DNA from: Rhizobium sp. R635
Lineage (GTDB): Bacteria; Pseudomonadota; Alphaproteobacteria; Rhizobiales; Rhizobiaceae
DNA: 64,000 nucleotides
Assembly (NCBI RefSeq): GCF_002211285.1
Contig: NZ_LOKX01000008.1
Coordinates: 62,001 to 126,000 of the forward strand
Reading direction: 5' to 3'
Under the pieces are notes generated by a model that had not been told where the DNA came from, searched no databases, and saw nothing but the letters and a program-made list of their open reading frames with translations. Positions 11,684-24,395 of this stretch are shown one piece after another. Both the position numbers and the translations under genes were made by a program. Each line of letters starts with the position of its first letter. The stretch's first letter is position 1.

Positions 11684-12760
11684 ATGACGGAACTGAGGTC
11701 GATACTTGACGAGGCGGCGCGCCAGGGGCTGATTTCGCCGGAAGCGGGCGGGCGGCTTCTGCCGTTCCTTGCAGAGCGCGGCGTGGCCGTCGTCGCCGGG
11801 GCGGCGCCGGCAGCCGCCGCCGCGGGGCAGGCATGGTCGGATACGGAGACGCCGCGTTTCGTGCGGGGCTTCCATGACGTGCTGATCACCATCGGCGTCA
11901 TCGTCGCGCTCGTCGGCCTCTGGGGGCTTGCGCCTCTTTACGCCGTGCCGGTGGCCATCATCGTGCTTTCGGAAATTCTGGTACGCCGCCAGCGGCTCGC
12001 CCTGCCGGCGGTCAGCCTGGCGATCGCGCTGTTCTGCTGGATATTTTTCCTGATGTCCCGCGTCTTTACGCCTTGGACCTCCGAAATCGGAGCGGATTTG
12101 ACACAGTTCGTCGCCGGCTTTCCGATCATTCTCGGCGTCTACTATGCCCGCTATCGCGTGCCGTTGTCGCTGGCGCTCACTATTATGTCGACGCTTGCTT
12201 TGGTGCTCACCCTGCTTTTGCGCCTGGTGCAATGGCTAAGCGGCAATCCCGCGTTTTTCGTCGATCATCTCGGCGTGCTGGCCGCGGTCGCTTTCGTCTG
12301 CGCGCTCGGCCTCTTCGCGACGGCGCTTTATTTCGACCTCGGCGACCGGCTACGGCGGACGACGCGTTCGGATATCGCGTTCTGGCTGCATCTCGGTGCG
12401 GCGCCGGCGCTGCTCTACAGCACCGTCTCCCTGCTGTCGTTCGGGGAAGGCGGTCGTATCTTCGACTTGGCGAACATGTCGGCCCGGACGCCCGTGGTCG
12501 TCGCGACCGTGGCGGCGCTGATGCTGATCGGCCTCGTCATCGATCGCCGCGCCTTCGTCACTTCGGGGCTGCTGTCGCTCGGCGTTGCGATCTTCAGCGT
12601 CGTCCGGAAGGGAAATGCGACTGTCGATACCTACATCTTCACGACGCTGATCGTCGTCGGCGCGATCGTGCTCATTATCGGAACGGGCTGGATGCCGCTG
12701 CGCCGGCTGGTGCTCAGGGCACTGCCGCCTGCAATCGCGAACAGGCTGCCGCCCGGCTAG
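11684..12760 (+). CDS. multi-spanning membrane protein of unknown function
   Basis: 358 residues. The first 60 form a cytoplasmic N-terminus with a short helical motif (ELRSILDEAARQGLISPEAGGRLLPFL, the kind of linker helix seen in DUF2157-like membrane proteins) and an alanine-rich stretch; about ten hydrophobic helices follow. No transporter or enzyme motif is recognised. The stop codon TAG at 12758-12760 is also the first three bases of the right-hand palindromic repeat, so the repeat insertion may have set the C-terminus. The gene is bracketed by inverted copies of that composite repeat. Function is unknown. Confidence 0.85.
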   Translation: MTELRSILDEAARQGLISPEAGGRLLPFLAERGVAVVAGAAPAAAAAGQAWSDTETPRFVRGFHDVLITIGVIVALVGLWGLAPLYAVPVAIIVLSEILVRRQRLALPAVSLAIALFCWIFFLMSRVFTPWTSEIGADLTQFVAGFPIILGVYYARYRVPLSLALTIMSTLALVLTLLLRLVQWLSGNPAFFVDHLGVLAAVAFVCALGLFATALYFDLGDRLRRTTRSDIAFWLHLGAAPALLYSTVSLLSFGEGGRIFDLANMSARTPVVVATVAALMLIGLVIDRRAFVTSGLLSLGVAIFSVVRKGNATVDTYIFTTLIVVGAIVLIIGTGWMPLRRLVLRALPPAIANRLPPG

Positions 12761-12870
12761 AGCATGATGCCGAAAAGTGTGAGCGGTTTTCGGGCGACAT
12801 CATGCTCTAACTTATTAATTTAGAACAGGATTCAGATTTTAGGCCGCTTCGGCCTAAAATCATCCTGTTC
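12758..12870. repeat. composite rhizobial palindromic repeat, right copy (inverted)
   Basis: TAGAGCATGATG (12758) to CATCATGCTCTA (12809) forms the first palindrome; GAACAGGAT (12823-12831) to ATCCTGTTC (12862-12870), with inner TTTTAGGCCGCTTCGGCC and TAAAA, forms the second. It is the reverse-oriented counterpart of 11519-11630. The inner hairpin with flanking A/T runs may also stop transcription of the convergent membrane-protein and ychF genes. Confidence 0.82.
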
Positions 12871-12891
12871 TTAGGCGGCAGCCAACTCCGA

Positions 12892-13995
12892 TCAGGTGTT
12901 GAAGCGGAAGTGGATGACGTCTCCGTCCTGGACGACGTATTCCTTGCCTTCGTCGCGCGCCTTGCCGGCATCTTTCGCGCCGACTTCGCCGTTGAATTTG
13001 ATGTAATCGTCATAGGCGATGGTGTTGGCGCGGATGAAGCCCCGCTCGAAATCCGAATGGATGACGCCGGCGGCCTGTGGGGCCTTGGTGCCGCGCTCGA
13101 TCGTCCAGGCGCGCGTTTCCTTCGGACCGACGGTGAAATAGGTGATGAGGTGCAGCAGCTTGTAGCCGGCGCGGATCAGCCGGTCGAGACCGGCCTCATC
13201 GAGATCGAGGGCGGAGAGGAATTCCTTGGCTTCCTCTTCAGCAAGCTGGGCGACCTCAGCTTCGATCGCCGCCGAGATGATGACGGTTTCGGCACCCTGT
13301 TCCTTTGCCATGGCGGCGACGGCGGCGGTGAATTCGTTGCCGGTCGAGGCATCGCCTTCGGCGACGTTGCAGACGTAGAGCACCGGATGCGAGGTAAGCA
13401 GGTTGAGGCCCTTGAGGATGGCAATCTCCTCGGCATCGAGCGTCGACAGCAGCGTGCGCACCGGCTTGCCTTCGTTGAGCAGCTTCAGCGAGGCTTCCAT
13501 GATCGGCAGCATTGCCATGGAATCCTTGTCTTTGCTGGTGGCACGCTTGCGCGTCTGCTCGGTGCGGCGTTCCAGGCTCTCGAGATCGGCGAGCATCAAC
13601 TCGGTCTCGATCGTTTCGGCGTCGGCGACCGGGTTGATGCGGCCCTCGACGTGGGTGATGTCGCTGTCTTCGAAGCAGCGCAGCACATGCACGATGGCAT
13701 CGACTTCGCGGATATTGGCGAGGAACTGGTTGCCGAGGCCTTCACCCTTCGAGGCGCCGCGCACCAGGCCGGCAATGTCGACGAAGGAGATGCGGGTCGG
13801 GATCAGTTCCTTGGACTTGGCGATGTCGGCCAGCTTGCGCATGCGCGGATCGGGCACGGCGACTTCGCCGGTGTTCGGCTCGATGGTGCAGAAGGGGTAG
13901 TTCGCCGCCTGTGCAGCCGCCGTTTTGGTGAGCGCGTTGAAGAGGGTCGATTTGCCGACGTTCGGCAGACCGACGATGCCGCATTTGAAGCCCAT
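12892..13995 (-). CDS. ychF: redox-regulated ATPase/GTPase YchF (OBG family)
   Basis: 367 residues; ribosome-associated P-loop NTPase of the Obg-like family, cytoplasmic. G1 is GLPNVGKST near residue 8, G3 is DIAG in [16 protein letters not shown], and a C-terminal TGS domain ends in [13 protein letters not shown]. The start MGFKCGIVG at 13995 is the conserved N-terminus; the open frame continues upstream but that extension is not family-like. Length fits the usual 363-367. Expressed away from the toxin-antitoxin pair at 14135. Confidence 0.97.
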
Positions 13996-14080
13996 GGCTT
14001 GATGTCCGTGTTTGTGAAAACTTTGCCCCTGCCTATGGGGGAACACCTTTCCCCGGTCAAGGGTCCATGAAATTAAAGCG

Positions 14081-14118
14081 CCATTGAAAGTAAGGCAAAA
14101 CTGCCTTACTTTCAATGG
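14081..14118. promoter_or_regulatory. perfect 17-bp inverted repeat before the AbrB/PIN pair
   Basis: Arms CCATTGAAAGTAAGGCA (14081-14097) and TGCCTTACTTTCAATGG (14102-14118) are perfectly complementary around loop AAAC. It ends 16 bases before the antitoxin ATG. The best reading is an operator bound by the AbrB-type antitoxin, or a hairpin acting on the transcript. It is not followed by a T run. Confidence 0.6.
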
Positions 14119-14134
14119 AGGCAGGAGTGGTGTG

Positions 14135-14392
14135 ATGGTCAGGCTCAAGGTTACGGCGAAAGGTCAGGTGACCCTCAAGAAAGAGGTTCTCGACCATCTC
14201 GGGATAGCGCCCGGTGATGAGATCGAGATCGATCTCCTGCCGAGGGCCAGTGGAAATATCCATGCGATCAAATCGACGGTGCCTATCGAGCGTCTGTTCG
14301 GCATGTTTTCTCATAAGGCCGACAGAGCCTATTCCATCGACGAGATAAATGAAGTGATCGAGGCTGGATGGGCTGGCGAGGATAAGGTTTGA
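14135..14392 (+). CDS. AbrB/MazE-type antitoxin
   Basis: 85 residues. The N-terminal swapped-hairpin AbrB domain is clear: VRLKVTAKGQVTLKKEVLDHL, then GIAPGDEIEIDLLPRG-like strands. The C-terminal tail (DRAYSIDEINEVIEAGWAGE) is the part expected to bind the toxin. An AGGAG-type ribosome site (GCAGGAGTGG) precedes the ATG at 14135; upstream in-frame codons fall in the palindrome. The stop TGA overlaps the TTG start of the PIN toxin. It probably represses its own promoter through the inverted repeat just upstream. Confidence 0.88.
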   Translation: MVRLKVTAKGQVTLKKEVLDHLGIAPGDEIEIDLLPRASGNIHAIKSTVPIERLFGMFSHKADRAYSIDEINEVIEAGWAGEDKV

Positions 14393-14790
14393 AGGTCGTC
14401 GTCGATACGAACATTCTCGTGCGGATGTTCACGCGCGACCATCCTGTCGAAAGTCCGAAGGCAGAAGAGTTCCTCCGGTCCTACCGGATCGTTGTGCCGA
14501 ACCAAACGCTTTGTGAATTGGCCTGGGTTCTTCGACGGCTCTATAAATTCGACGCAGCTGAGGTGAAGCAGGCGCTGACGTATCTCGCAGAGGCGGAGAC
14601 GGTTACGCTCGATCGTGCCGCTGTTGCGAGCGGTCTTTTATTCCTGGAGGCCGGCGGCGATTTCGCGGATGGCATCATTGCGCTCGAAGGCGAAAGACTC
14701 GGCGGAGAAAGTTTTGCGACATTCGACAGGAAAGCCGCTGCCATTCTTCGAAAAGCCGGCCAGAATTGCCTCCTGCTCTCCGTTGACTGA
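14389..14790 (+). CDS. vapC: PIN-domain ribonuclease toxin (VapC family)
   Basis: 133 residues; metal-dependent RNase of the VapC class, neutralised by the AbrB-type protein encoded in front. Acidic active-site residues are in place: Asp6 in VVDTNI, Glu in LCELAW, Asp in GGDFADGI and Asp in FATFDRKA. It starts with TTG at 14389, overlapping the antitoxin stop (TTGA). The AbrB-PIN pairing is a common variant of the type II VapBC systems. All four acidic positions are present, so it should be active. Confidence 0.9.
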   Translation: MKVVVDTNILVRMFTRDHPVESPKAEEFLRSYRIVVPNQTLCELAWVLRRLYKFDAAEVKQALTYLAEAETVTLDRAAVASGLLFLEAGGDFADGIIALEGERLGGESFATFDRKAAAILRKAGQNCLLLSVD

Positions 14791-14883
14791 TATTTACGTC
14801 ATTGAACTGCCGTGCTGACGGTGCAATATAGTCCGGCGGATGTTTCTTCCGCCTTTTCATGTCATCAACGGGTGGATTTTCCG

Positions 14884-15195
14884 ATGAGTGACAATGACGT
14901 TGCCCTGAAACCGAAGACCAAGGGAAAGCCGAAGCTGGACAGGCCGAAGCTCTACAAAGTCATTCTCGTCAACGACGATTATACGCCGCGCGAATTCGTC
15001 ATCGTGATCCTGAAGGTCGTTTTCCGCATGAGCGAGGAGACCGGCTATCGGGTGATGATGACGGCGCATAAGCTCGGCTCCTGCGTGGTCATCGTCTGCG
15101 CCAGGGATATTGCCGAGACCAAGGCCAAGGAGGGCATCGACCTTGCCAAGGAGATGGGCTTTCCGCTGATGTTCACCACCGAGCCTGAGGAATAG
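14884..15195 (+). CDS. clpS: ATP-dependent Clp protease adaptor, ClpS2-like
   Basis: 103 residues; cytoplasmic adaptor that hands N-degron substrates to ClpAP. The N-degron pocket motif is visible in LYKVILVNDDYTPREFVIVIL, and HKLGSCVVIVCARDIAETKA forms the ClpA-binding face. The residue pattern (VFRMSEETG, C-terminal FPLMFTTEPEE) is like the second ClpS copy of Agrobacterium/Rhizobium rather than the one encoded beside clpA, and no clpA gene is next to it. The ATG at 14884 gives the family N-terminus. Not clearly tied to the toxin-antitoxin pair upstream. Confidence 0.93.
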   Translation: MSDNDVALKPKTKGKPKLDRPKLYKVILVNDDYTPREFVIVILKVVFRMSEETGYRVMMTAHKLGSCVVIVCARDIAETKAKEGIDLAKEMGFPLMFTTEPEE

Positions 15196-15201
15196 CTGGG
15201 T

Positions 15202-15663
15202 TCAGGGCCGGCGGATCTGATAACCCGTCTTGTCCTGCAGGAAGCCGCAATTCTCGTAGAAGCGCAGCGTCGCCGGGTTCTTGGAGCCGGTCAGCAGCAT
15301 CACCTTGTAGCAGCCGGCCTTCCAGGCCTCGGTCACGGCATGGTCGATGACCGCGCCGGCGTAGCCATGCCGGCGATGATCGGCATGGGTGACGACGTTT
15401 TCGATGAGCGCGTAGGAGGCGCCATTCCGCGTCAGATTTGGGACGACGATCAGCGTGGCGGTCGCAGCCGCGAAACCGTCCGCAAAGCCGATGAACAGGG
15501 TCATGCCGGGCTGAGCGAGAATGGCGGAGAAGCGCTCCTCGGCCACGGTCTTGTCAAGGACCGGATCGGCCGGGTTCAGATGTTCGTAGAGGGTGGCCAA
15601 TCCCGGGAAATCGCCGGCGGCGGCCGGACGGATGGTAAAATCCTGGTCCGGCATCCGGCTCAT
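15202..15663 (-). CDS. GNAT family N-acetyltransferase
   Basis: 153 residues of the GCN5-related acetyltransferase fold, using acetyl-CoA. The acetyl-CoA loop is [15 protein letters not shown] (R-x-x-G-x-A pattern), preceded by [12 protein letters not shown] and followed by the C-terminal [16 protein letters not shown] motif. Substrate unknown. The first codon overlaps the pth stop (15660-15663), so it is translated from the pth message. Confidence 0.9.
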
Positions 15664-16391
15664 TCTCCCTTGTTGCCGAACATCTTCTTCAGCATCTCGG
15701 CCATCGGGCCGGTGGTTGGCAGCTTCGGCTGATTGCTGTTGCGGGCCTGGCGGATATGCGACTGGCCTGCCGGCTTCTTATCGCTATCCTTGCTTTCCTT
15801 TCGCGGCTTTTCTTCCTCGGCCTTGCCGCCGAGCGCCAGGGCGATCTTGTTCATCAGCTGCGAATCCTCGTTTCGCACCAGCATATCGGCATTGTCGGCG
15901 AGCGTATCGAGAAGCGGCTCCACCCAGGCCCTGTCGGCCTTGGCGAAATCGCCGAGCACGTGGTTCTGCACCATTTCCTTGACGCCGGGATGGCCGATGC
16001 CGAGGCGCAGCCGCCGGTATTCCTTGCCGCAATGGGCGTCCAGCGATTTGATGCCGTTGTGGCCGCCATGGCCGCCGCCGGTCTTCAAGCGCGCCTTGCC
16101 CTGGGGAAGGTCGAGTTCGTCGTAGATCGCGACGAGGTCGGCGGGCTGGAGTTTGTAGAAGCGCATTGCCTCGCCGACGGCTTCGCCCGAGAGGTTCATA
16201 TAGGTCTGCGGCTTAATCAGCAGCACCTTTTCGCCACCAAGTTCGCCCTCGGCGATCTCGGCCTTGAACTTCTTCGACCAGGGCGAGAAGCTGTGACGGC
16301 GATGAATGGCGTCGACGGCCATGAAGCCGATATTGTGGCGGTTGCCGGCGTATTTGCCGCCGGGATTGCCGAGACCCGCGATGATCAGCAT
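15660..16391 (-). CDS. pth: peptidyl-tRNA hydrolase
   Basis: 243 residues; frees tRNA from peptidyl-tRNA dropped by ribosomes. Active-site elements are present: [18 protein letters not shown] with the catalytic His20-type residue, [10 protein letters not shown], and YDELDLPQG with the Asp; [12 protein letters not shown] forms the tRNA loop. The last ~50 residues are a lysine-rich extension typical of rhizobial Pth. In many bacteria pth follows rplY directly; here a c-di-GMP receptor gene and a binding-protein gene lie between them on the same strand. Confidence 0.96.
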
Positions 16392-16483
16392 GGCCTGTCG
16401 TCCTCGCTTAAGCTTTTCCGACGTTCACCACCCGGAAACGGGAGCAAAGTCAAGCGGAAAGGGCAATGACGTACCGAGCGGCA

Positions 16484-17197
16484 TCAATCCGACAGGTTCA
16501 TGCCGTATTTCTGGAAGATCTGCTTCTGGTCGCCGTCGGCAATCAGTTTGTTGAGCGCCGCCTGCATCTTGGCGAGCAGATCGTCCGGAAAACTTTTCTC
16601 GCAGGCGATCCCCATCGGCTGGGCGGAGAGCACGGTCACCAACTCCACCGGCTGGTCGGCCTTCAGCTTGTCGAAATAGAGTTCGGAGATCGGCATCATG
16701 TCGATGCGCCCGCTCAGGAGCTTGCGCAGCGTCGCGTTGAAGTCGCTGGCGACATCGAGCTTGGGGAAGCCCTTCTCCTTCAGGATCGTCTCGGTATAGT
16801 CCTCGCGCTGCGTGCCGACCGTATATTTCTTCGCCTCTTCCAGATTGGCGGCGGTGACGCCGGAGCCCTTGCGGGTGATCAGGATGTTGCGGTCGATGAG
16901 CAGCGGCTCGACCCATTTGAACAGCGGGTCGCGCGCGCTGTTGTGAGCGGTGGCGAAGACGCAGGTCATCGGCACCGTGCGGGCAAGGCTGAAAGCGCGC
17001 GCCCAGGGCATGACCTCGATCGTGTAGTCGACGCCGATTGCGGCCATGACCTTTTCGACCTGTTCGACCGTCGCGCCCTTGATCTCCTTGCCTTCACGAT
17101 AGTTGAAGGGGGCGTAGTCCTCGGTGGTGAAAGCCACGGTTTGCGCATGGGCGGCGCAGGGCAGCGCCAGGCAGGCGAGAAGCAGGAGCTTTTTCAT
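16484..17197 (-). CDS. periplasmic solute-binding protein (SBP_bac_3-like), no transporter partner
   Basis: 237 residues with a cleavable signal peptide (MKKLLLLACLALPCAAHA) and the family 3 bilobed binding-protein pattern: TVAFTTEDYAPFNYREGKEI at the N-terminus, KGATVEQVEKVMAAIG, then a C-terminal lobe ending QIFQKYGM. No permease or ATPase gene is adjacent. It starts 24 bases after the GGDEF-EAL receptor gene on the same strand, so the pair probably form one operon. I infer that it senses a small ligand for that receptor, as NspS does for MbaA in Vibrio cholerae. The ligand cannot be predicted. Confidence 0.85.
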   Translation of the reverse strand: MKKLLLLACLALPCAAHAQTVAFTTEDYAPFNYREGKEIKGATVEQVEKVMAAIGVDYTIEVMPWARAFSLARTVPMTCVFATAHNSARDPLFKWVEPLLIDRNILITRKGSGVTAANLEEAKKYTVGTQREDYTETILKEKGFPKLDVASDFNATLRKLLSGRIDMMPISELYFDKLKADQPVELVTVLSAQPMGIACEKSFPDDLLAKMQAALNKLIADGDQKQIFQKYGMNLSD

Positions 17198-17221
17198 CGG
17201 ATCATCTCCTTGGTTCTTCGA

Positions 17222-19573
17222 TCACGAGGCGCGGGCGACGTCGGACTGCGACCCCACCAGTTCCTCGATGAGCTTGGCTGCATGCTGCGGGCGATGGAAG
17301 AGGTAGCCCTGGCCGTAGTCAAGCCCCATCTGGTGGAGCGTGCGGCATTCCTCTTCGGTCTCGATGCCCTCGGCGATGACGGTGCAGTTCATCTTGTGCG
17401 AGAGCGTGGTGATGCCTTCGATCAGCATGCGGCTCTTCTGGCGCACATCGTCGTCGCCGTCGTTGATCGCACGGGTGAAGGACTGGTCGATCTTGATGAT
17501 GTCGACCGGGAAACGGTTGAGGTAGCTGAGCGACGAGTAGCCGGTGCCGAAATCGTCGAGCGCGATGCGGCAGCCGAAGCGGCGCAGTTCGGTGACGATC
17601 ATGCGGATCTGCGGATTGTCGTGCATCAGCACCGCTTCGGTGATTTCGACGACGATGCGTTCGGCGCGGATGCCGTGGCGGCCGACGATGGCGGCAAGGC
17701 GGGCCGGCAGCGCCGGCTCGAACTGCAGCGGCGAGAAATTGATGGCGAGATAGGTATCCTGCATCCCCGGTATGCGGGAAATCTTCGCCAGGTTGGCGAT
17801 CGCCTTTTCCATGATGACGTTGCCGACGCGGACGATCTTTGCCGTCTCCTCGGCGACGTTGATGATCTCGGCCGGCGGCATCAGGCCTTTTTGCGGATGG
17901 TTGAGGCGCATCAGCGCCTCGAAGCCGGCAATGCCGCGGCCGTTCAGGTTGACGATCGGCTGCAGGAAGGCCTCGAACCAGTTCTCGGCGAGGCCGGCTT
18001 CGATATTGGCCTCGATCTCGGCGCGGCTGCGGGCGCGGTCGAGCATGGCGTTGTCGAAGAGCTGCGAGCCGTTCTTGCCGTCGCGTTTCTTGGCGTACAT
18101 CGCCATGTCGGATTTCTGCAGCAGCTCGGCGGCTGTCGTGGCGTGGCTGGGATAGACGGCGATGCCGATCGAAGCGCTCAGGTGCATGTCGGGGCCGAAG
18201 GGCGTGTCGAAGATCGAGGCGATCTGCTCGCACATCATCCTGGCGCGCTTCTCGGCGTCCTTGGCCGGCAGCAGGATGGCGAATTCGTCGCCGCCGAGGC
18301 GGGCGGCCTCGTCGGAGGGCGCAAGATGCGTCTTAAGGCGCTCGACGAGCTCGATCAGCGCCATGTCGCCGGCGGCATGGCCCATATTGTCGTTGATCCA
18401 CTTGAAGCGGTCGAGATCGACGAAGAGGCAGGCGAGCTCATGTCCGGCGGCGTCGGCGGCGGCAATCTTGCTGTCGAGGACGGCTTCGAAGCCCTGGCGG
18501 TTGAGCAGCCCGGTCAGGTGGTCGGTGATCGCCTGGCGATGATTGCGGTCCTCGGAGGCCTTGAGCTCGGTCACATCGGTCATGACGGACAGCGAGAGAC
18601 GGTCTTGAGCGCCGGCTTCCGCTTCCGATTCCATGATGAGCACGTCCATGATGCGGCCGTCCATGCAGACGAACTTGACGGTGACGGCCATGCCGTTTTC
18701 CGCCTCGCGGCGCTTGACGAACCTGTCGCGGGTGTTGGGGGTGACGAGGTTGGCGAAGTTGCGGCCGATGACGGAGGCGCGGTGATATCCCGTGGCGAAA
18801 AGCCAGTAGTCGCTGACGGCGGTGATGCGGTCTTCCTCGTCGAGCGAGAAGAGCATGGCAGGCGTCAGATTGTAGATGTCGGTGGCGCGGCGATGGGCGA
18901 ACTTCAGCTCCTTCTCCTCGCTTTCGAGCTTGGTCTGCATCTCGTTGAAGCTGCGGGCGAGTCGTCCCATCTCATCGTTCGACTGCCAATCGACGTGATG
19001 ACGGGAGCCGAGCTGGCGGGTGGCCTCGATTGCGGCCGTCAGCCGCATCAGCGGCTGGATGACGAAGATGCGGTTGCCGATCAGCGCCGTGCCGAAAACG
19101 GTCAATACCGCGAAGATGAAGATCGAGATGAAGACGACCTCTTCCTGCTTCAGGCCGGAAAACAAGCCGAGGGCGGGATAGTAGACGCTGATGCTGCCGA
19201 GGTTCTTCGGGCCGTCGACGGTATTGTAGATGATGGCGCGCGAGACCTGCACGAGCTTGCCGTCGAAGGAGCGCGGAATGGTGGATTGGCTGACGTCGAG
19301 CTGGCCCGACTGGTCGCGCACTTCAACCTTGACGATTGCGCCCTGGGAAACGACCGTCGCGCTGATCTGGGTCACGCTGTCCTCATCGAGGTCCCAGAGG
19401 GGCTTGGCCAGCGCCTGGGCATTGGCGACAAGAAGAACGGAGATATGGTCTCGTATTTCCTTGTCGGCCCGTTCGGAGGAAAGAAACAGGAAGAGAACAA
19501 AGAGGGGGGCGACGAAGACGAGCAGCGCTCCGCACACTATCGCAAAAAATCTGTTCTCAACGGAATTGTTCAT
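17222..19573 (-). CDS. membrane GGDEF-EAL protein with HAMP and PAS domains
   Basis: 783-residue cyclic-di-GMP enzyme. Layout: TM1 about 9-32, a small periplasmic domain 33-146, TM2 147-170, HAMP 170-222, PAS 230-350, GGDEF with RLGGDEF (GGDEF at 427-431), then EAL with FEALMRLNHP (EAL at 552-554) and DDFGTGYSSL. Both catalytic motifs are intact, so it may make or break c-di-GMP depending on input. The periplasmic domain is only about 115 residues. A periplasmic binding protein gene follows after 24 bases and is the likely ligand sensor. Pathway output (motility, biofilm or exopolysaccharide) is not shown by the sequence. Confidence 0.94.
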   Translation of the reverse strand: MNNSVENRFFAIVCGALLVFVAPLFVLFLFLSSERADKEIRDHISVLLVANAQALAKPLWDLDEDSVTQISATVVSQGAIVKVEVRDQSGQLDVSQSTIPRSFDGKLVQVSRAIIYNTVDGPKNLGSISVYYPALGLFSGLKQEEVVFISIFIFAVLTVFGTALIGNRIFVIQPLMRLTAAIEATRQLGSRHHVDWQSNDEMGRLARSFNEMQTKLESEEKELKFAHRRATDIYNLTPAMLFSLDEEDRITAVSDYWLFATGYHRASVIGRNFANLVTPNTRDRFVKRREAENGMAVTVKFVCMDGRIMDVLIMESEAEAGAQDRLSLSVMTDVTELKASEDRNHRQAITDHLTGLLNRQGFEAVLDSKIAAADAAGHELACLFVDLDRFKWINDNMGHAAGDMALIELVERLKTHLAPSDEAARLGGDEFAILLPAKDAEKRARMMCEQIASIFDTPFGPDMHLSASIGIAVYPSHATTAAELLQKSDMAMYAKKRDGKNGSQLFDNAMLDRARSRAEIEANIEAGLAENWFEAFLQPIVNLNGRGIAGFEALMRLNHPQKGLMPPAEIINVAEETAKIVRVGNVIMEKAIANLAKISRIPGMQDTYLAINFSPLQFEPALPARLAAIVGRHGIRAERIVVEITEAVLMHDNPQIRMIVTELRRFGCRIALDDFGTGYSSLSYLNRFPVDIIKIDQSFTRAINDGDDDVRQKSRMLIEGITTLSHKMNCTVIAEGIETEEECRTLHQMGLDYGQGYLFHRPQHAAKLIEELVGSQSDVARAS

Positions 19574-19705
19574 GGTTCCGTCTACTCCCCCTGGACCGGC
19601 CCTGTTTGCTGTCGCGCTTCAGGACGGGCTTCTTCTCAGCTGACGGAGCATGCTTTCACGAATGTGTTAAATTTGCTGAAACGGCAACCATTCCGGGCAA
19701 TGAAA

Positions 19706-19750
19706 AGCCCGCTTTCCCCGTGAACTAGGGCTAGTTCAGGGGGAAGCGGG
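19706..19750 (-). terminator. strong hairpin terminator after rplY
   Basis: GCCCGCTTTCCCC and TGAACTAG on one side pair with CTAGTTCA and GGGGGAAGCGGGC on the other, giving a stem of about 20 bp with one bulge or mismatch; on the minus strand it ends in TTTTC. It isolates rplY from the GGDEF-EAL gene. Confidence 0.85.
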
Positions 19751-19779
19751 CCATATGCTTTACAAATTGGTCGAAGCGA

Positions 19780-20388
19780 TCAGGCTTCGGATTCGCCTTC
19801 CGCGGCGCTCTCGTCGATGCCGGCAGCCGGAGCGACGATGGTCGCGATCGTGAAGTCACGGTCGATGACCGGGGTGACGCCCTTCGGCAGAGCGACTTCC
19901 GAAATGTGGATGCTGTCGCCGATCTTCTTGCCGCTGAGGTCGATGTTGAAGAATTCCGGGATCGCATCGGCCGGGCAGTGAACTTCGACTTCGTGGCGGA
20001 CGATGTTCAGGACGCCGCCGACCTTGAGGCCCGGGGACTTCGCTTCGTTGACGAAGTGAACCGGGATTTCGACGGTCACCTGGGTGTTGCCGGAGACGCG
20101 CAGGAAATCGACATGCAGCGTGAAGTCGCGGACCGGATCGAGCTGATAGTCCTTCGGCAGAACCTTGTACTTCTTGCCGTCGACTTCGATGGTCGCTACG
20201 GTGGTCATGAAGCCACCGGCGTGAATGCGCTTCGTCACCTCATTGGTGTTGATAGCGATGGCAATGGGGGCCTGCTTGTCACCATAGATGACAGCGGGAA
20301 TCAAACCGTTGCGGCGAAGTTCACGGGCGGACCCCTTACCAACCCGTTCGCGCGCCTCGGCCTTGAGCTCGTAAGTTTCCTGGCTCAT
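19780..20388 (-). CDS. rplY: 50S ribosomal protein L25/general stress protein Ctc
   Basis: 202 residues; binds 5S rRNA in the large subunit. The N-terminal L25 domain (about 1-90) is followed by the C-terminal Ctc/TL5 domain (about 95-190) and an acidic tail. Motifs [13 protein letters not shown] and [12 protein letters not shown] are family features. It has its own terminator at 19706-19750 and a long leader with a TATAAT on the minus strand at 20519-20524. Confidence 0.95.
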
Positions 20389-20788
20389 GGCTTTTCCTTT
20401 CGAGGTTATTTGGAGAGTTCGGCGGCGGGCAAAAGCCTTATGCCATCGAACCGGAGGCGGGTTTCCCCATCCTCATCCGCGTTGCCTCCAAGGGTGTCTA
20501 CGCGGACCGGTGGCCTATATTATAAGTCGGTCGGAAACGCAAGTTGCCGATTGCGGCGCTTTTTCGGCGATATACAGCCTTTCGCCAAGGCGCTCGATCA
20601 TGCGGACCGGTCAACCTGGCGAGATCGCATTCGCCTGCCGCCTCAATGAGAAAACCTTGAAATCACGCGCGATCTGCGCCTGTTCAAAGGCAAAATTGCC
20701 AGTGCTTATCGCCACTTGGCTTGACATCCGCGCGCTTCGCATCTTTGGATGGCCGCAATCAAAAAGCGGCTGAGGAGAAAACCAGACT
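20389..20788. other. intergenic region between rplY and the next gene, with possible promoters
   Basis: 400 bases without a gene. On the minus strand a TATAAT at 20524-20519 may be the rplY -10 box, but its -35 box is weak. On the plus strand TTGACA at 20721-20726, preceded by C (the rhizobial CTTGACA form), may be the -35 box for the downstream gene; the -10 box is poor. GCGGACCGGT occurs twice (about 20502 and 20598). No RNA gene recognised. Confidence 0.4.
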
Positions 20789-22333
20789 ATGCGTCTCAAA
20801 CTTGTCACGGCAACGAGCATGCTTGCCCTTTGCCTTTTCACCGCGGCCGAGGGCGCGGAGATCAATCAGGACGGCGCCAAAACGGTCAAGGAGACCTTGA
20901 CGAAGCTGCTTCCGGAGGACTGGGCGAAGAGCGGCTTCATTACCGTCAACCCGGCCGGCACGCGCTATGAGGTCATCTACGATCTGGCGAAGCTGATTGC
21001 CAAGACCGATCCGGCGACCTTCACCATCAAAGGGCTGACACCGTTCTCGATGTTCGCCACGCCGCTCGACAGCGGGCTCTGGAACGTCGAAGGCGACAAC
21101 AAGTTCAACGTCTCCGGCCATTTCAAAGGCCCGGATCAGAAGCCGACGGATTTCACCTATTCCATCGCTTCGCTTGTTTATACCGGCGTCTTCGACCCGG
21201 CGATCAGCTATCTGCGTTCCGGCACCTTCGCGGCCAAGGACATTAAGATGTCCAGCAAGTCCGAAACCGAGGAGGTTCATGCCACCATCGCCAGCATGGA
21301 CCAGAAGCTGAGTTCGGCGGATAGTGCCGGCGGCAACGGACGTGTCGATTTTGCCGGCACCGGTTCGATGTCCGATTTCGTCGAGCAGGTTTCCGGCCTG
21401 CAGATGCCGCCCGTCGAATTCCGTGCCGGTTCGATCGATTTCGAGGCGAAGGTGAACGGCCTGCCGGCAAAGCAGCTTCGCGACATGGTCTTCTTCGTGC
21501 TCGACCATCTCGACGAGAAGGAATTGAGCCCGGAAGACAGCGCCAAGATAAAGGGAATAGTGAAGGAAGCCTTCCCGCTTCTGACCTTGTTCAGCGAGAC
21601 GATCGGGGTCCACGATCTGACGATCAGCAGCGAGATGGGCAAGGGCGGCGCCAAGGCATTCGGCTATAACCTCGCCATCGACGGGCCGAGCGACGCCATG
21701 CGTTTCGGCTTCGGCTTGAACGCGCAGGAGATCAGCCTCGACACGCCGCTGATGCCGGCAAATTATGCGAGCTTCATGCCGACCAACTTCGATTTCCAGC
21801 TCGCCGTTCCGAATCTGGATTTCGCAAGCCTGGGCGACGCCCTCATGGCGGTGGATTTCAACGCCGAGGCGCCGGAAAAGAGCGGCGAGGAGATGGCGAA
21901 AAAACTCTTCCGCGACGGCCGGCTTGCCGTCGAGTTTCCCAAGATCAGCGCCAAGTCCGATGTCTATGACATCGACATGTCGGGCAAGATCGAGGGCCGG
22001 GTCGACACCGAGAAGGACTATTCGATGGAGGCGACGATCCTTGCCCGCGATCTCGACAAGACGATCGCGTCGATTCAGGAGCTTGCCAAGACGGATCCCG
22101 ATCTCAACCAGGTCTCCTTCGGCATCATGATGGTGAAAGGCTTCGCCAAGACCGATCCCGACGGCCGTTCGCGCTGGGACATCAGCATCAGCCGCGATGG
22201 CGCGATTGCCGTCAACGGCCAGGTGGTCAAGGGACCGGATGGTCCGGATCAGGATCAGGGGCTGGAGTCGGACCAGGAGCAGGAACGGGATCAAGATCAG
22301 GATGCTGTCCCTGCGCCGCCGCAGCAGCCTTGA
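20789..22333 (+). CDS. secreted periplasmic protein of unknown function (DUF2125-like)
   Basis: 514 residues with a signal peptide ending near LFTAAEGAE. The body is a mixed beta-rich fold with repeated strands of the kind seen in outer-membrane-linked 'DUF' proteins of Rhizobiales (LNAQEISLDTPL, FDFQLAVPNLDF, YDIDMSGKIEGRVD). The resemblance to DUF2125 is my impression only. The last 40 residues are low-complexity and acidic (PDQDQGLESDQEQERDQDQD). A GAGGAGA ribosome site precedes the ATG. It is followed by a short hairpin terminator and stands alone as a single-gene unit. Confidence 0.82.
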   Translation: MRLKLVTATSMLALCLFTAAEGAEINQDGAKTVKETLTKLLPEDWAKSGFITVNPAGTRYEVIYDLAKLIAKTDPATFTIKGLTPFSMFATPLDSGLWNVEGDNKFNVSGHFKGPDQKPTDFTYSIASLVYTGVFDPAISYLRSGTFAAKDIKMSSKSETEEVHATIASMDQKLSSADSAGGNGRVDFAGTGSMSDFVEQVSGLQMPPVEFRAGSIDFEAKVNGLPAKQLRDMVFFVLDHLDEKELSPEDSAKIKGIVKEAFPLLTLFSETIGVHDLTISSEMGKGGAKAFGYNLAIDGPSDAMRFGFGLNAQEISLDTPLMPANYASFMPTNFDFQLAVPNLDFASLGDALMAVDFNAEAPEKSGEEMAKKLFRDGRLAVEFPKISAKSDVYDIDMSGKIEGRVDTEKDYSMEATILARDLDKTIASIQELAKTDPDLNQVSFGIMMVKGFAKTDPDGRSRWDISISRDGAIAVNGQVVKGPDGPDQDQGLESDQEQERDQDQDAVPAPPQQP

Positions 22334-22362
22334 ACGTTCTCAATTGGAATCAGAGATGAGGA

Positions 22363-22384
22363 GGCCGGCCCTGTGCCGGCCTTC
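22363..22384 (+). terminator. hairpin after the 20789-22333 gene
   Basis: 7-bp stem GGCCGGC / GCCGGCC (22363-22369, 22375-22381) with a 5-base loop, followed only by TTC. A weak terminator or simple hairpin. Confidence 0.5.
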
Positions 22385-22417
22385 AGGCTGCTGACAAACC
22401 GCTGCAAAACCCGCGAC

Positions 22418-22533
22418 GTCATCCTCGGCCAGTGCCGAGGATCTGCTTCGGTCGATTAAGTGGCTGAAAACAAACGCTTTTCCGTCAAATAATTGCAGTG
22501 GTCAGGTGCTCGGCACGAGGCCGAGCATGACGG
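22418..22533. repeat. pair of inverted REP-like hairpins
   Basis: CGTCATCCTCGGCCAGTGCC to GAGGATCTGC (from 22418) and, on the opposite strand, CGTCATGCTCGGCCTCGTGC to CGAGCACCTGAC (22503-22533) are related elements in head-to-head orientation about 85 bases apart. Each forms a 7-9-bp hairpin. This motif is common between rhizobial genes. Confidence 0.6.
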
Positions 22534-22544
22534 AGAAGACGGTT

Positions 22545-23477
22545 TTAATCGAAGAGGCTGGATACGGACTCTTCCTGGGCGGTTCGGCTGATGGCTTCGC
22601 CGATCAGCGGCGCCGTCGTCACGACGCGGATATTGTGCGCTGAGAGCACGGCCGTCGTCGGCTGGATCGAGTCGGTAATCACGAGTTCGCGCAGCTTCGA
22701 GGAGGTGACGCGAGTGACCGCGCCGCCGGAAAGAACGCCGTGCGTGATATAGGCGGTGACGCTGGCGGCGCCCTGGGCGAGCAGTGCATCGGCCGCGTTG
22801 CAGAGCGTGCCGCCGGAATCGACGATGTCGTCGATCAGCAGGCAGTCCTTGCCGGTGACGTCGCCGATGATGTTCATGACTTCGGATTCACCCGGCCGAT
22901 CGCGACGCTTGTCGACGATGGCCAGCAGACAGTCCAGCCGTTTGGCGAGCGCGCGGGCGCGCACCACGCCGCCGACGTCGGGCGAGACGACCATGACGTT
23001 GCTGAGGTCATAATGGCTCTTGATGTCGCGCGTCAGCACGGGCAGGGCGAAGAGGTTGTCCGTGGGGATATCGAAGAAGCCCTGGATCTGCCCGGCATGG
23101 AGATCGAGCGTCATGACGCGGTCGGCCCCGGCTTCGGTAATCAGGTTTGCGACCAGCTTGGCGGAGATCGGCGTGCGGCCGGATGCGCGGCGGTCCTGAC
23201 GGGCGTAGCCGAAATAGGGAAGAACGGCGGTGATGCGGCGTGCCGACGAACGACGCATGGCGTCGATCATGATCAGCAGCTCCATCAGATGGTCGTTGGC
23301 GGGAAAGGCCGTCGGCTGCACGAGGAAAACGTCCTCGCCGCGCACGTTCTCCTGGATTTCCACGAAGATTTCCTGGTCGGCAAACCTTCGAACACTGGCT
23401 CTCCCCAAGGGAACATTGAGATAGTTGCAGATCGCTTCGGCGAGTTGCCGGTTCGAATTGCCTGCGAAAACCTTCAT
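22545..23477 (-). CDS. prs: ribose-phosphate pyrophosphokinase
   Basis: 310 residues; makes PRPP from ribose 5-phosphate and ATP for purine, pyrimidine, histidine and tryptophan synthesis. Signatures are complete: [20 protein letters not shown], the flexible loop [21 protein letters not shown] and the PRPP loop [13 protein letters not shown]. Length matches bacterial class I enzymes. The 105-base gap to the upstream lipoprotein gene leaves room for its own promoter. Confidence 0.98.
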
Positions 23478-23582
23478 TTTGGTCCGCCTGTTATGCGCTG
23501 ATAGCCGCGCTTTTTAGTCAGCTTCCCTGTGAATGCAAGGGCAAAGGCGTCACAGGCTTTGATATTTGCAAAAAGTTTGTGA

Positions 23583-24395
23583 CTAACCGCCCTGCGACTG
23601 CCGCCAGGAGGTGAATTCCGCGATGGTTTTCGAGCCGATCTGCTGCATCACCGAGGCCGGAACGCCCGCCCAGGGATCGGCCGCGGCCGTCGGCACGCTT
23701 TCCTGGCCCTGGATGCGGTGCAGGCGCCCCCCGCCATTGTCGAGGATGTCCCAGACATAGACGACCGTGACCTTGCCGTCGTCGCTGAAGGCGGAGAGAT
23801 AGCCTTTGAGGATGTAGTCGCTGCTCGCGTCGTTCGAACTCTTGATGGAGAGGCCGTGCGCGCGAGCCTCGGAGCCGAGCTGGCGCGAAAGCGGCGTCAC
23901 CGCCTGAACCGGCGCGCCGATGATCGGCAGGAAGCGGACAGTATTGCCGCGGGCGGACGAGGGGCCGGGGTTGAGGGCGGCAGTCTGCCGAGGCTGTTGC
24001 GTCTCGGCCGCCGGAGCGGCAGGTTCTTCGCCGCTTGACGGCGGCGGCAGCGATTGCCCCTCGATCGGGGCGGAGGCGGCGGGCGAGGAATCGTTGCGCG
24101 ACAAAGCGTCGGCCTGCTCCTGCATCGTCGTCGGGGGTGCGCCGGAACCGGGCCGATAGGCGCGCTGCGTTTGGTCGTAGGCCGGGTGATAGCCGCCCTG
24201 CCGCGTATTTGCGGCGAAGGCCGGCTGGCGGGTGCCTGCCAGGCTCTCGGCCTCGCTCTGCGTGACCGGGCTCGATGGCGCACTCGCCGAGGAATCGCCG
24301 ATGTCGACCATCGGCGTCAGCGCATCGGTGGTGTTGCAGGCGGTCAGCTGAGCCATGACGAAGAGGAGCGTGGGCACAATCGCAGCTCGCGTCAT
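23583..24395 (-). CDS. lipoprotein with disordered linker
   Basis: 270 residues from the chosen ATG at 24395, which gives signal MTRAAIVPTLLFVMAQLTAC with lipobox LTAC; a longer start nine codons upstream is possible. Residues about 25-145 are rich in Ser, Pro, Ala and Gln and probably unstructured. The C-terminal ~110 residues form a globular domain (VRFLPIIGAPVQAVTPLSRQ, SDYILKGYLSAFSDDGKVTV, VVYVWDILDNGG). That domain looks like the family that predicts an outer-membrane-lipoprotein fold similar to LptE/CsgG-like sheets, but I do not assign a function. Confidence 0.82.
   Translation of the reverse strand: MTRAAIVPTLLFVMAQLTACNTTDALTPMVDIGDSSASAPSSPVTQSEAESLAGTRQPAFAANTRQGGYHPAYDQTQRAYRPGSGAPPTTMQEQADALSRNDSSPAASAPIEGQSLPPPSSGEEPAAPAAETQQPRQTAALNPGPSSARGNTVRFLPIIGAPVQAVTPLSRQLGSEARAHGLSIKSSNDASSDYILKGYLSAFSDDGKVTVVYVWDILDNGGGRLHRIQGQESVPTAAADPWAGVPASVMQQIGSKTIAEFTSWRQSQGG

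Follow-up and report, generated by a model that had tools for sequence, protein, structure and literature searches.

We analysed a stretch of 64,000 nucleotides from Rhizobium sp. R635 (contig NZ_LOKX01000008.1, positions 62,001 to 126,000; hereafter the window), in which two minus-strand genes from the list of open reading frames (ORFs) fill the interval 16484–19573 exactly. The first encodes a 783-residue GGDEF-EAL receptor (17222–19573), recognised by ORF, translation and Pfam, with an M-x-x-S-V-type start common to sixty-two loci (L030–L091). The second encodes a 237-residue orphan periplasmic binding protein of the SBP_bac_3 family (16484–17197), recognised in the same way, with a signal peptide read from the sequence at about residues 1–19. 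Between them lies a gap of twenty-four nucleotides (17198–17221), with AGGAG (17206–17210) ahead of the binding-protein ATG. An earlier interpretation made from the DNA letters (the sequence-only reading) had described this arrangement and likened the pair to NspS–MbaA of Vibrio cholerae; the gene order and the spacing are confirmed here.

The receptor runs through a transmembrane (TM) helix, a periplasmic domain, a second TM helix and then HAMP, PAS, GGDEF and EAL domains, with domains assigned by Pfam and helices from the sequence and a structure model. Both helices are approximate: the first covers residues 11–31 (19481–19543; within predicted helix 2–55) and the second residues 148–168 (19070–19132; predicted helix 143–191). 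HAMP spans residues 172–217 (18923–19060) and PAS residues 240–336 (18566–18856; PAS_9, E-value 2.1e-06), so that both lie between the membrane part and the enzyme domains, as had been claimed. Pfam and an alignment of 114 receptors place the GGDEF domain, with RLGGDEF, at residues 348–501 (18071–18532) and an intact EAL domain at residues 524–762 (17288–18004). GGDEF residues 427–431 and EAL residues E552 and L554 are identical in 113 of the 114 receptors, the remaining row being a gap, and A553 is A in 110. Residues N612, E643, E646, D673, D674, K694 and E735, to which we assign catalytic roles, are conserved at 0.99. The statement that both catalytic motifs are intact thus stands, and because the catalytic positions of both domains are conserved in 113 rows (110 for the A of EAL), a bifunctional receptor with both enzyme activities is plausible. 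The inhibitory RxxD site lacks its R in the window receptor (APSD), and the aligned residue is Arg in 27/114. The receptor also matches the active-cyclase consensus of PMC8546604 at residue 386.

The periplasmic domain is small, as the sequence-only reading had said, covering about residues 32–147 (19133–19480). It has a conserved KPLWDxD motif, and W60 and D63 are kept in all 114 aligned receptors. The structure model of the receptor N-terminus is middling (predicted local distance difference test, pLDDT, 72.8; predicted template modelling score 0.48) and consists of a long helix, a short helix, four strands and a long helix. It matches mainly Cache-type sensor domains at Z-scores of about 9–12. 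The best matches are TlpA (Z 11.8, root-mean-square deviation (rmsd) 3.7, 123 residues aligned) and 3li8 (Z 10.9, rmsd 2.1, ninety-four aligned), followed by WalK 4ywz (Z 9.9, rmsd 2.3, ninety-nine aligned) and the LapD orthologue CdgS9 (Z 9.3, rmsd 4.2, 116 aligned); a ribosomal chain in the same list also scores Z 8.4. From the model, then, the domain is probably PDC/Cache-like. CHASE5 (PF17149) falls below its cut-off in the window receptor (12.8 bits against 27) and is weak in relatives, with 12/25 members at E ≤ 1 and a best member at E 0.00072. Searching solved structures with the N-terminal profile gave only matches at chance level or in the region of TM2 and HAMP.

The binding protein matches SBP_bac_3 (PF00497) with an E-value of 9.7e-14 (51.7 bits, cut-off 26.4). 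No SBP_bac_8 or SBP_bac_1 model, to which we take PotD to belong, matched it at E ≤ 0.01, which places it outside the PotD/PotF polyamine family. Its structure model is confident (pLDDT 90.9) and resembles amino-acid binding proteins, with 6fxg_B as the top match in the PDB (Z 25.9, rmsd 2.4, 217 aligned); the solved relatives are mostly amino-acid binders. Among the positions printed, E26, Y28, P64, W65, R67, C79, R89, F93, W95, P98, D133, R164, A198 and C199 are invariant across 115 aligned binding proteins. In an alignment with ArtJ, R89 falls on an Arg that presumably belongs to the carboxylate-binding site, and the position of an ArtJ Asp, which we take to contact the alpha-amino group in such importers, has Ser in 105/115. 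The matching Arg and the Ser in place of the Asp suggest a ligand that bears a carboxylate but is not necessarily a standard amino acid. C79 and C199 likely form a disulfide, judging from the sequences: both are present in 115/115, and 114 of these proteins have exactly two cysteines past the first twenty-five residues. Among twenty-two remoter proteins, twenty-one have Cys at both positions or at neither (the second position is gapped in two), and the sole exception is an unrelated SBP_bac_3 protein (L163).

The pair recurs in Rhizobiaceae. The closest named matches are from R. phaseoli and Rhizobium sp. J15 (95 per cent). Among twenty-five Rhizobium genomes, including that of the window, the receptor N-terminus occurs in all twenty-five and a strong binding-protein match in twenty-four, adjacent to it on the same contig each time; in the remaining genome, a fragmented assembly, the contig with the receptor breaks off inside the gene. 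A scan of named genomes found both genes in 62/66 loci with gaps of 13–105 nucleotides; its queries were short peptides of the window protein, which biases it towards close relatives. Of 218 sampled Rhizobiaceae genomes (thresholds of E ≤ 1e-25 for the binding protein and E ≤ 1e-20 for the receptor N-terminus), forty-one have the binding protein, all of them among the forty-three that have the receptor N-terminus. Counted by genus, these are twenty and twenty-two out of 109. The forty-six receptor places in this sample are forty-four inspected loci together with the window locus and L009. At 44 of the 46 the binding protein is the next gene downstream, and the gap among the inspected loci, L144 excepted, is −4 to 146 nucleotides.

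The forty-seven binding-protein places are those forty-four plus three tandem second copies, which come from three genomes of one genus (L151, L153, L155) where a single receptor is followed by two binding-protein genes in tandem. Another genus, taken as Sinorhizobium, has three genomes with two copies of the pair, one flanked by rplY and pth and the other at a site without those flanks. L144 is a second copy of the pair in which the receptor frame is broken and the binding-protein frame is open. Both genes are also present on plasmids of S. fredii, S. americanum and S. sojae. Because the pair duplicates and moves as a unit, these observations argue for a functional bond between the receptor and the binding protein.

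Within its own genome the binding protein stands apart from importer genes. The window genome has twenty SBP_bac_3 genes at the search threshold, and sixteen of them have a permease gene (PF00528) within 3 kb. The nearest listed permease to the window gene is 41 kb away (among thirty-three places chosen for nearness out of the best 150 of 201 candidates) and the nearest GGDEF domain 0.9 kb away (among fourteen of forty-one places, chosen in the same way), in keeping with the earlier description of a binding protein without transporter genes. Only one other SBP_bac_3 gene of this genome, among the places listed, is within 3 kb of a GGDEF domain: on contig C7 (L163:4562-7857) it is divergent from a CHASE4-GGDEF-EAL gene, with 113 nucleotides between the listed frames and the nearest permease among the places listed 13 kb away. 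On contig C1 (L164:2788-6163) another lies divergently near a HAMP chemoreceptor gene of the methyl-accepting chemotaxis protein (MCP) type, with no permease among the places listed within 14 kb.

We then looked across the order, searching 297 genomes at E ≤ 1e-12 with one profile for the binding protein (A1) and another for the receptor N-terminus (A2); the counts are lower bounds, since at most nine candidates were scored per genome. The binding-protein profile found at least twenty-three places in at least sixteen genomes. Eighteen of these places are outside Rhizobiaceae, and sixteen of the eighteen were inspected. At 8/16 the binding-protein gene adjoins a receptor, and the outputs vary: HAMP-PAS-GGDEF-EAL in L192, L193, L197 and L198, a HAMP-class III nucleotide cyclase in L194 and a HAMP-hybrid histidine kinase in L190. 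In L191 the contig ends within the receptor, of which CHASE5-like and HAMP parts are present, and L101 (the same locus as L092) has an MCP whose resemblance to the receptor module is weak (sequence E-value 0.0018). The receptor-module profile found at least twenty places in at least twenty genomes. Thirteen of the twenty adjoin the window's binding-protein family (five in Rhizobiaceae; the partner in genome G033 is remote and divergent). Two more are HAMP-GGDEF-EAL receptors directly behind a Peripla_BP_4 gene, overlapping it by a few bases at most (L207:2670-5905 and L210:2656-5879), and in L211 the module lies opposite another SBP_bac_3 gene, so that 16/20 places adjoin a binding-protein gene of some family.

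Remoter relatives of the binding protein (23–36 per cent) lie beside an MCP (L092), beside a PAS-histidine kinase (L094) and convergent with a dCache MCP (L095); a fourth, L093, has no receptor beside it. The receptor-module profile gave no match to the receptors of L094 and L095. No receptor adjoins a relative on a Klebsiella plasmid (29 per cent) or two neighbouring genes on a Pseudoalteromonas plasmid; about 2.4 kb upstream of the latter are a response regulator and an ATP-binding protein. Another relative occurs in an Aeromonas record that lacks annotation at that place, and a search of phage records gave no relative of the binding protein.

One way to read this distribution is as a portable sensory cassette. 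It would combine a largely receptor-dedicated branch of SBP_bac_3, marked by PW-x-R, R89 and F-x-W (invariant in the 115 aligned close relatives), with a Cache module that docks binding proteins and carries a HAMP domain. The cassette would serve c-di-GMP (cyclic di-GMP) enzymes, nucleotide cyclases, histidine kinases and perhaps chemoreceptors, and its docking module would also have been taken up by the unrelated Peripla_BP_4 proteins. We regard the case for this wider idea as evenly balanced.

For the window pair itself, we consider a two-protein ligand sensor the best explanation, with a probability of roughly 0.77. The orphan SBP_bac_3 protein would be secreted and bind a small molecule, probably one bearing a carboxylate. 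Once loaded, it would dock onto the receptor encoded next to it, at the Cache-like periplasmic domain, and the change would be relayed via TM2, HAMP and PAS into the two enzyme domains, GGDEF and EAL, tilting the receptor towards making or degrading c-di-GMP. The docking and the class of ligand are the steps that we infer. Control of a GGDEF-EAL receptor by an orphan binding protein, the core of the sequence-only reading, is well supported by the genome comparisons through co-occurrence, duplication as a unit and the swapping of outputs.

Several results weigh against this explanation. In two of the forty-three family genomes (L148 and L158) the receptor is still flanked by rplY and pth, but the binding-protein gene is gone; a profile search at E ≤ 0.001 in these two gave nothing in G200 and a single weak match (1e-7) in G131, at another place in the genome. 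Genomes drawn from a single family do not count as independent, and we attach no probability to the co-occurrence. Outside the family, 8/16 loci have no recognised receptor beside the binding-protein gene (L195, at a contig end; L196; L199–L202, all from genome G488; L203; L204), and the chemoreceptor of L101 is, as noted, only weakly similar. At four of the twenty receptor-module places (L205, L206, L208, L209) no binding protein was seen, a weak negative from the starts of a few neighbouring ORFs, with wrong-strand frames used for L206 and L209. Finally, distance matrices over thirty-nine loci gave partial correlations with the binding protein of 0.52 for the periplasmic domain, 0.59 for GGDEF and 0.46 for rplY (pth 0.32, PAS 0.23, EAL 0.18, HAMP 0.14, ychF 0.05). 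The periplasmic domain has no special tie to the binding protein here, which points to co-inheritance of the locus, and we rejected coevolution of distances as a signal of contact.

The loci without a receptor would fit a binding protein that serves a distant amino-acid ATP-binding cassette importer and shares an operon with the receptor by happenstance. SBP_bac_3 proteins are usually importer parts, as the sixteen of twenty genes with a nearby permease in the window genome illustrate, and orphan binding proteins that share an importer are known. Such an accident sits poorly with adjacency at 44/46 family places, with duplication as a unit, with the pairing to other output types and with the Ser that replaces the ArtJ Asp in 105/115 proteins, and we think it very unlikely. 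The loss of the binding protein in L148 and L158 bears instead on a receptor whose own Cache-like domain detects the ligand, with the binding protein as an optional helper (a buffer or presenter of ligand) rather than a switch. Cache-like domains of many receptors do bind ligands directly, and several ligand complexes are among the fold matches. We nonetheless judge direct sensing unlikely, given that this small domain evolves quickly (mean distance 1.40, compared with 0.42–0.77 in the other receptor domains) and that most receptor-module places in the order sample adjoin a binding-protein gene of some family.

If the two-protein sensor is correct, the direction of its switch can be only tentatively guessed. 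We lean, short of real confidence, towards a receptor that acts mainly as a cyclase when alone and is turned to a phosphodiesterase by the loaded binding protein, as in ScrB–ScrC and PruR–DcpA and opposite to NspS–MbaA. The first half of this guess rests on probable orthologues in S. fredii that act as cyclases in E. coli. There, SFb47640 and SFc23720, both with HAMP-PAS ahead of GGDEF, raised c-di-GMP and Congo red binding when expressed individually (PMC8546604), apparently with the partner absent. The S. fredii plasmid receptor beside a binding protein is 54 per cent identical to the window receptor and has the order HAMP-PAS-GGDEF-EAL. Its plasmid, pSF45436b, has seven GGDEF matches, at 111, 127, 635, 852, 1362, 1513 and 1515 kb. 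Scaling the map on the assumption that SFb52570 lies at 635 kb and SFb59510 at 1362 kb puts tag 47640 near 119 kb, and of the two candidates there only the 127-kb gene, the one beside the binding protein, has HAMP-PAS, as is stated for SFb47640 (PMC8546604). The plasmid receptor is therefore very probably SFb47640, although this assignment is by architecture and gene numbering and not by locus tag, which is a further weakness of the argument; that SFc23720 is the chromosomal copy is a guess. The opposite direction, in which the loaded binding protein promotes the cyclase and the receptor alone is a phosphodiesterase, is described for NspS–MbaA of V. cholerae (PMC8967002) and would suit the intact EAL domain. 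It is possible, but we hold it to be the more doubtful direction, as the probable orthologues are net cyclases when apparently partnerless. Plasmid pSF45436b also has, about 16 kb from its copy of the pair, a GGDEF-EAL frame with a same-strand frame matching SBP_bac_1 after it (L215:2-2748).

The principle of a c-di-GMP receptor controlled by a binding protein is already known, and it is the principle of the comparison with NspS–MbaA that holds. Both systems have adjacent genes for a periplasmic binding protein and a membrane receptor of the order TM-periplasmic-TM-HAMP-GGDEF-EAL, and RxxD is absent in both. The identity does not hold, on account of the binding-protein family, the periplasmic size, the PAS domain and the gene order. 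NspS is PotD-like and nspS lies upstream of mbaA and overlaps it (PMC9993111), whereas the window protein belongs to SBP_bac_3 and its gene lies downstream after a gap. The MbaA of S. meliloti has periplasmic residues 24–256, about twice the window domain, as well as SGDEF in place of GGDEF, and only HAMP, cyclase and phosphodiesterase domains are named for it (PMC9993111), while the window receptor also has PAS. The sequence-only reading had known of no described rhizobial case; NspS–MbaA of S. meliloti (smc00991/smc00992; PMC9993111) is one, and PruR–DcpA of Agrobacterium tumefaciens (PMC13259868) is a further pair that works on this principle.

By analogy, ScrB–ScrC or PruR–DcpA may be the better models for direction. 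In scrABC of Vibrio parahaemolyticus, which we compared by description only, a periplasmic binding protein switches a GGDEF-EAL receptor (PMC11315295, PMC10269520), and ScrC without signal acts as a cyclase (PMC11315295). ScrA makes the signal in that system (PMC11315295, PMC10269520), whereas the window pair has no scrA aminotransferase gene and its next genes are rplY and pth. In PruR–DcpA the loaded binding protein favours c-di-GMP breakdown, and PruR–DcpA and PruR–DTB together show the same swapping of outputs, with GGDEF-EAL or kinase partners (PMC13259868). PruR, however, is a sulfite-oxidase-like pterin binder encoded upstream, and its receptor has a periplasmic region of about 190 residues with a WX7E motif (PMC13259868); the window has an SBP_bac_3 protein downstream and a domain of about 115 residues. 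WX7E is absent from the window receptor, in which W60 is the invariant residue and position 68 is T (E in 12/114).

ArtI of Salmonella is, we assume, an importer component. Arginine-binding ArtI acting with STM1987, and the fused SBP_bac_3 domain of Pseudomonas RmcA, likewise feed c-di-GMP enzymes (PMC8846402). STM1987 has dCACHE_1 and uses ArtI, and the binding domain of RmcA is fused (PMC8846402), whereas the window binding protein is a separate protein encoded beside its own receptor. AruS–PA4985 of Pseudomonas aeruginosa has a CHASE5-type receptor, whose domain was insoluble, encoded near a binding protein, and the window domain matches CHASE5 weakly, below the cut-off; the differences are SBP_bac_8 and a histidine kinase output (PMC11113362). 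For many binding-protein-activated kinases, it is established that the kinase and binding-protein genes are neighbours (PMC11113362). Overall, the window pair would work like NspS–MbaA, ScrB–ScrC and PruR–DcpA, yet it lacks at least one of the defining features tested for each. Among the matches listed (open-access titles and the starts of abstracts) no paper concerned this pair, so within that scope this particular SBP_bac_3/Cache-HAMP pairing seems to be new, as do its distribution across the family and the range of its outputs. Many c-di-GMP receptors lack a known signal; a soluble binding protein that stays next to its receptor in twenty genera of the family sample, in a group that includes legume-root colonisers, offers a direct handle on one such signal. 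The swapped outputs suggest a general route for attaching one ligand detector to different signalling systems.

The conserved flanks of the locus, outside the system itself and identified with Pfam and the family loci, are rplY (ribosomal L25; 19780–20388) upstream and pth (peptidyl-tRNA hydrolase; 15660–16391) downstream, both on the minus strand. A promoter and terminator scan found none but was uninformative, with chance expectations of 0.6 and 3.2, and Rfam at gathering scores gave no match in 12000–24000. Between prs and rplY, the window encodes a 514-residue protein without a Pfam match (20789–22333). The prs–rplY site holds GGDEF-EAL-like frames in several loci, and in another genome of the genus it holds an MHYT-PAS-GGDEF-EAL gene (L107:10224-13001). 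Between ychF and clpS (14084–14790), a 102-residue frame overlaps the start of a PIN-domain frame by four nucleotides and resembles, with it, a toxin–antitoxin pair.

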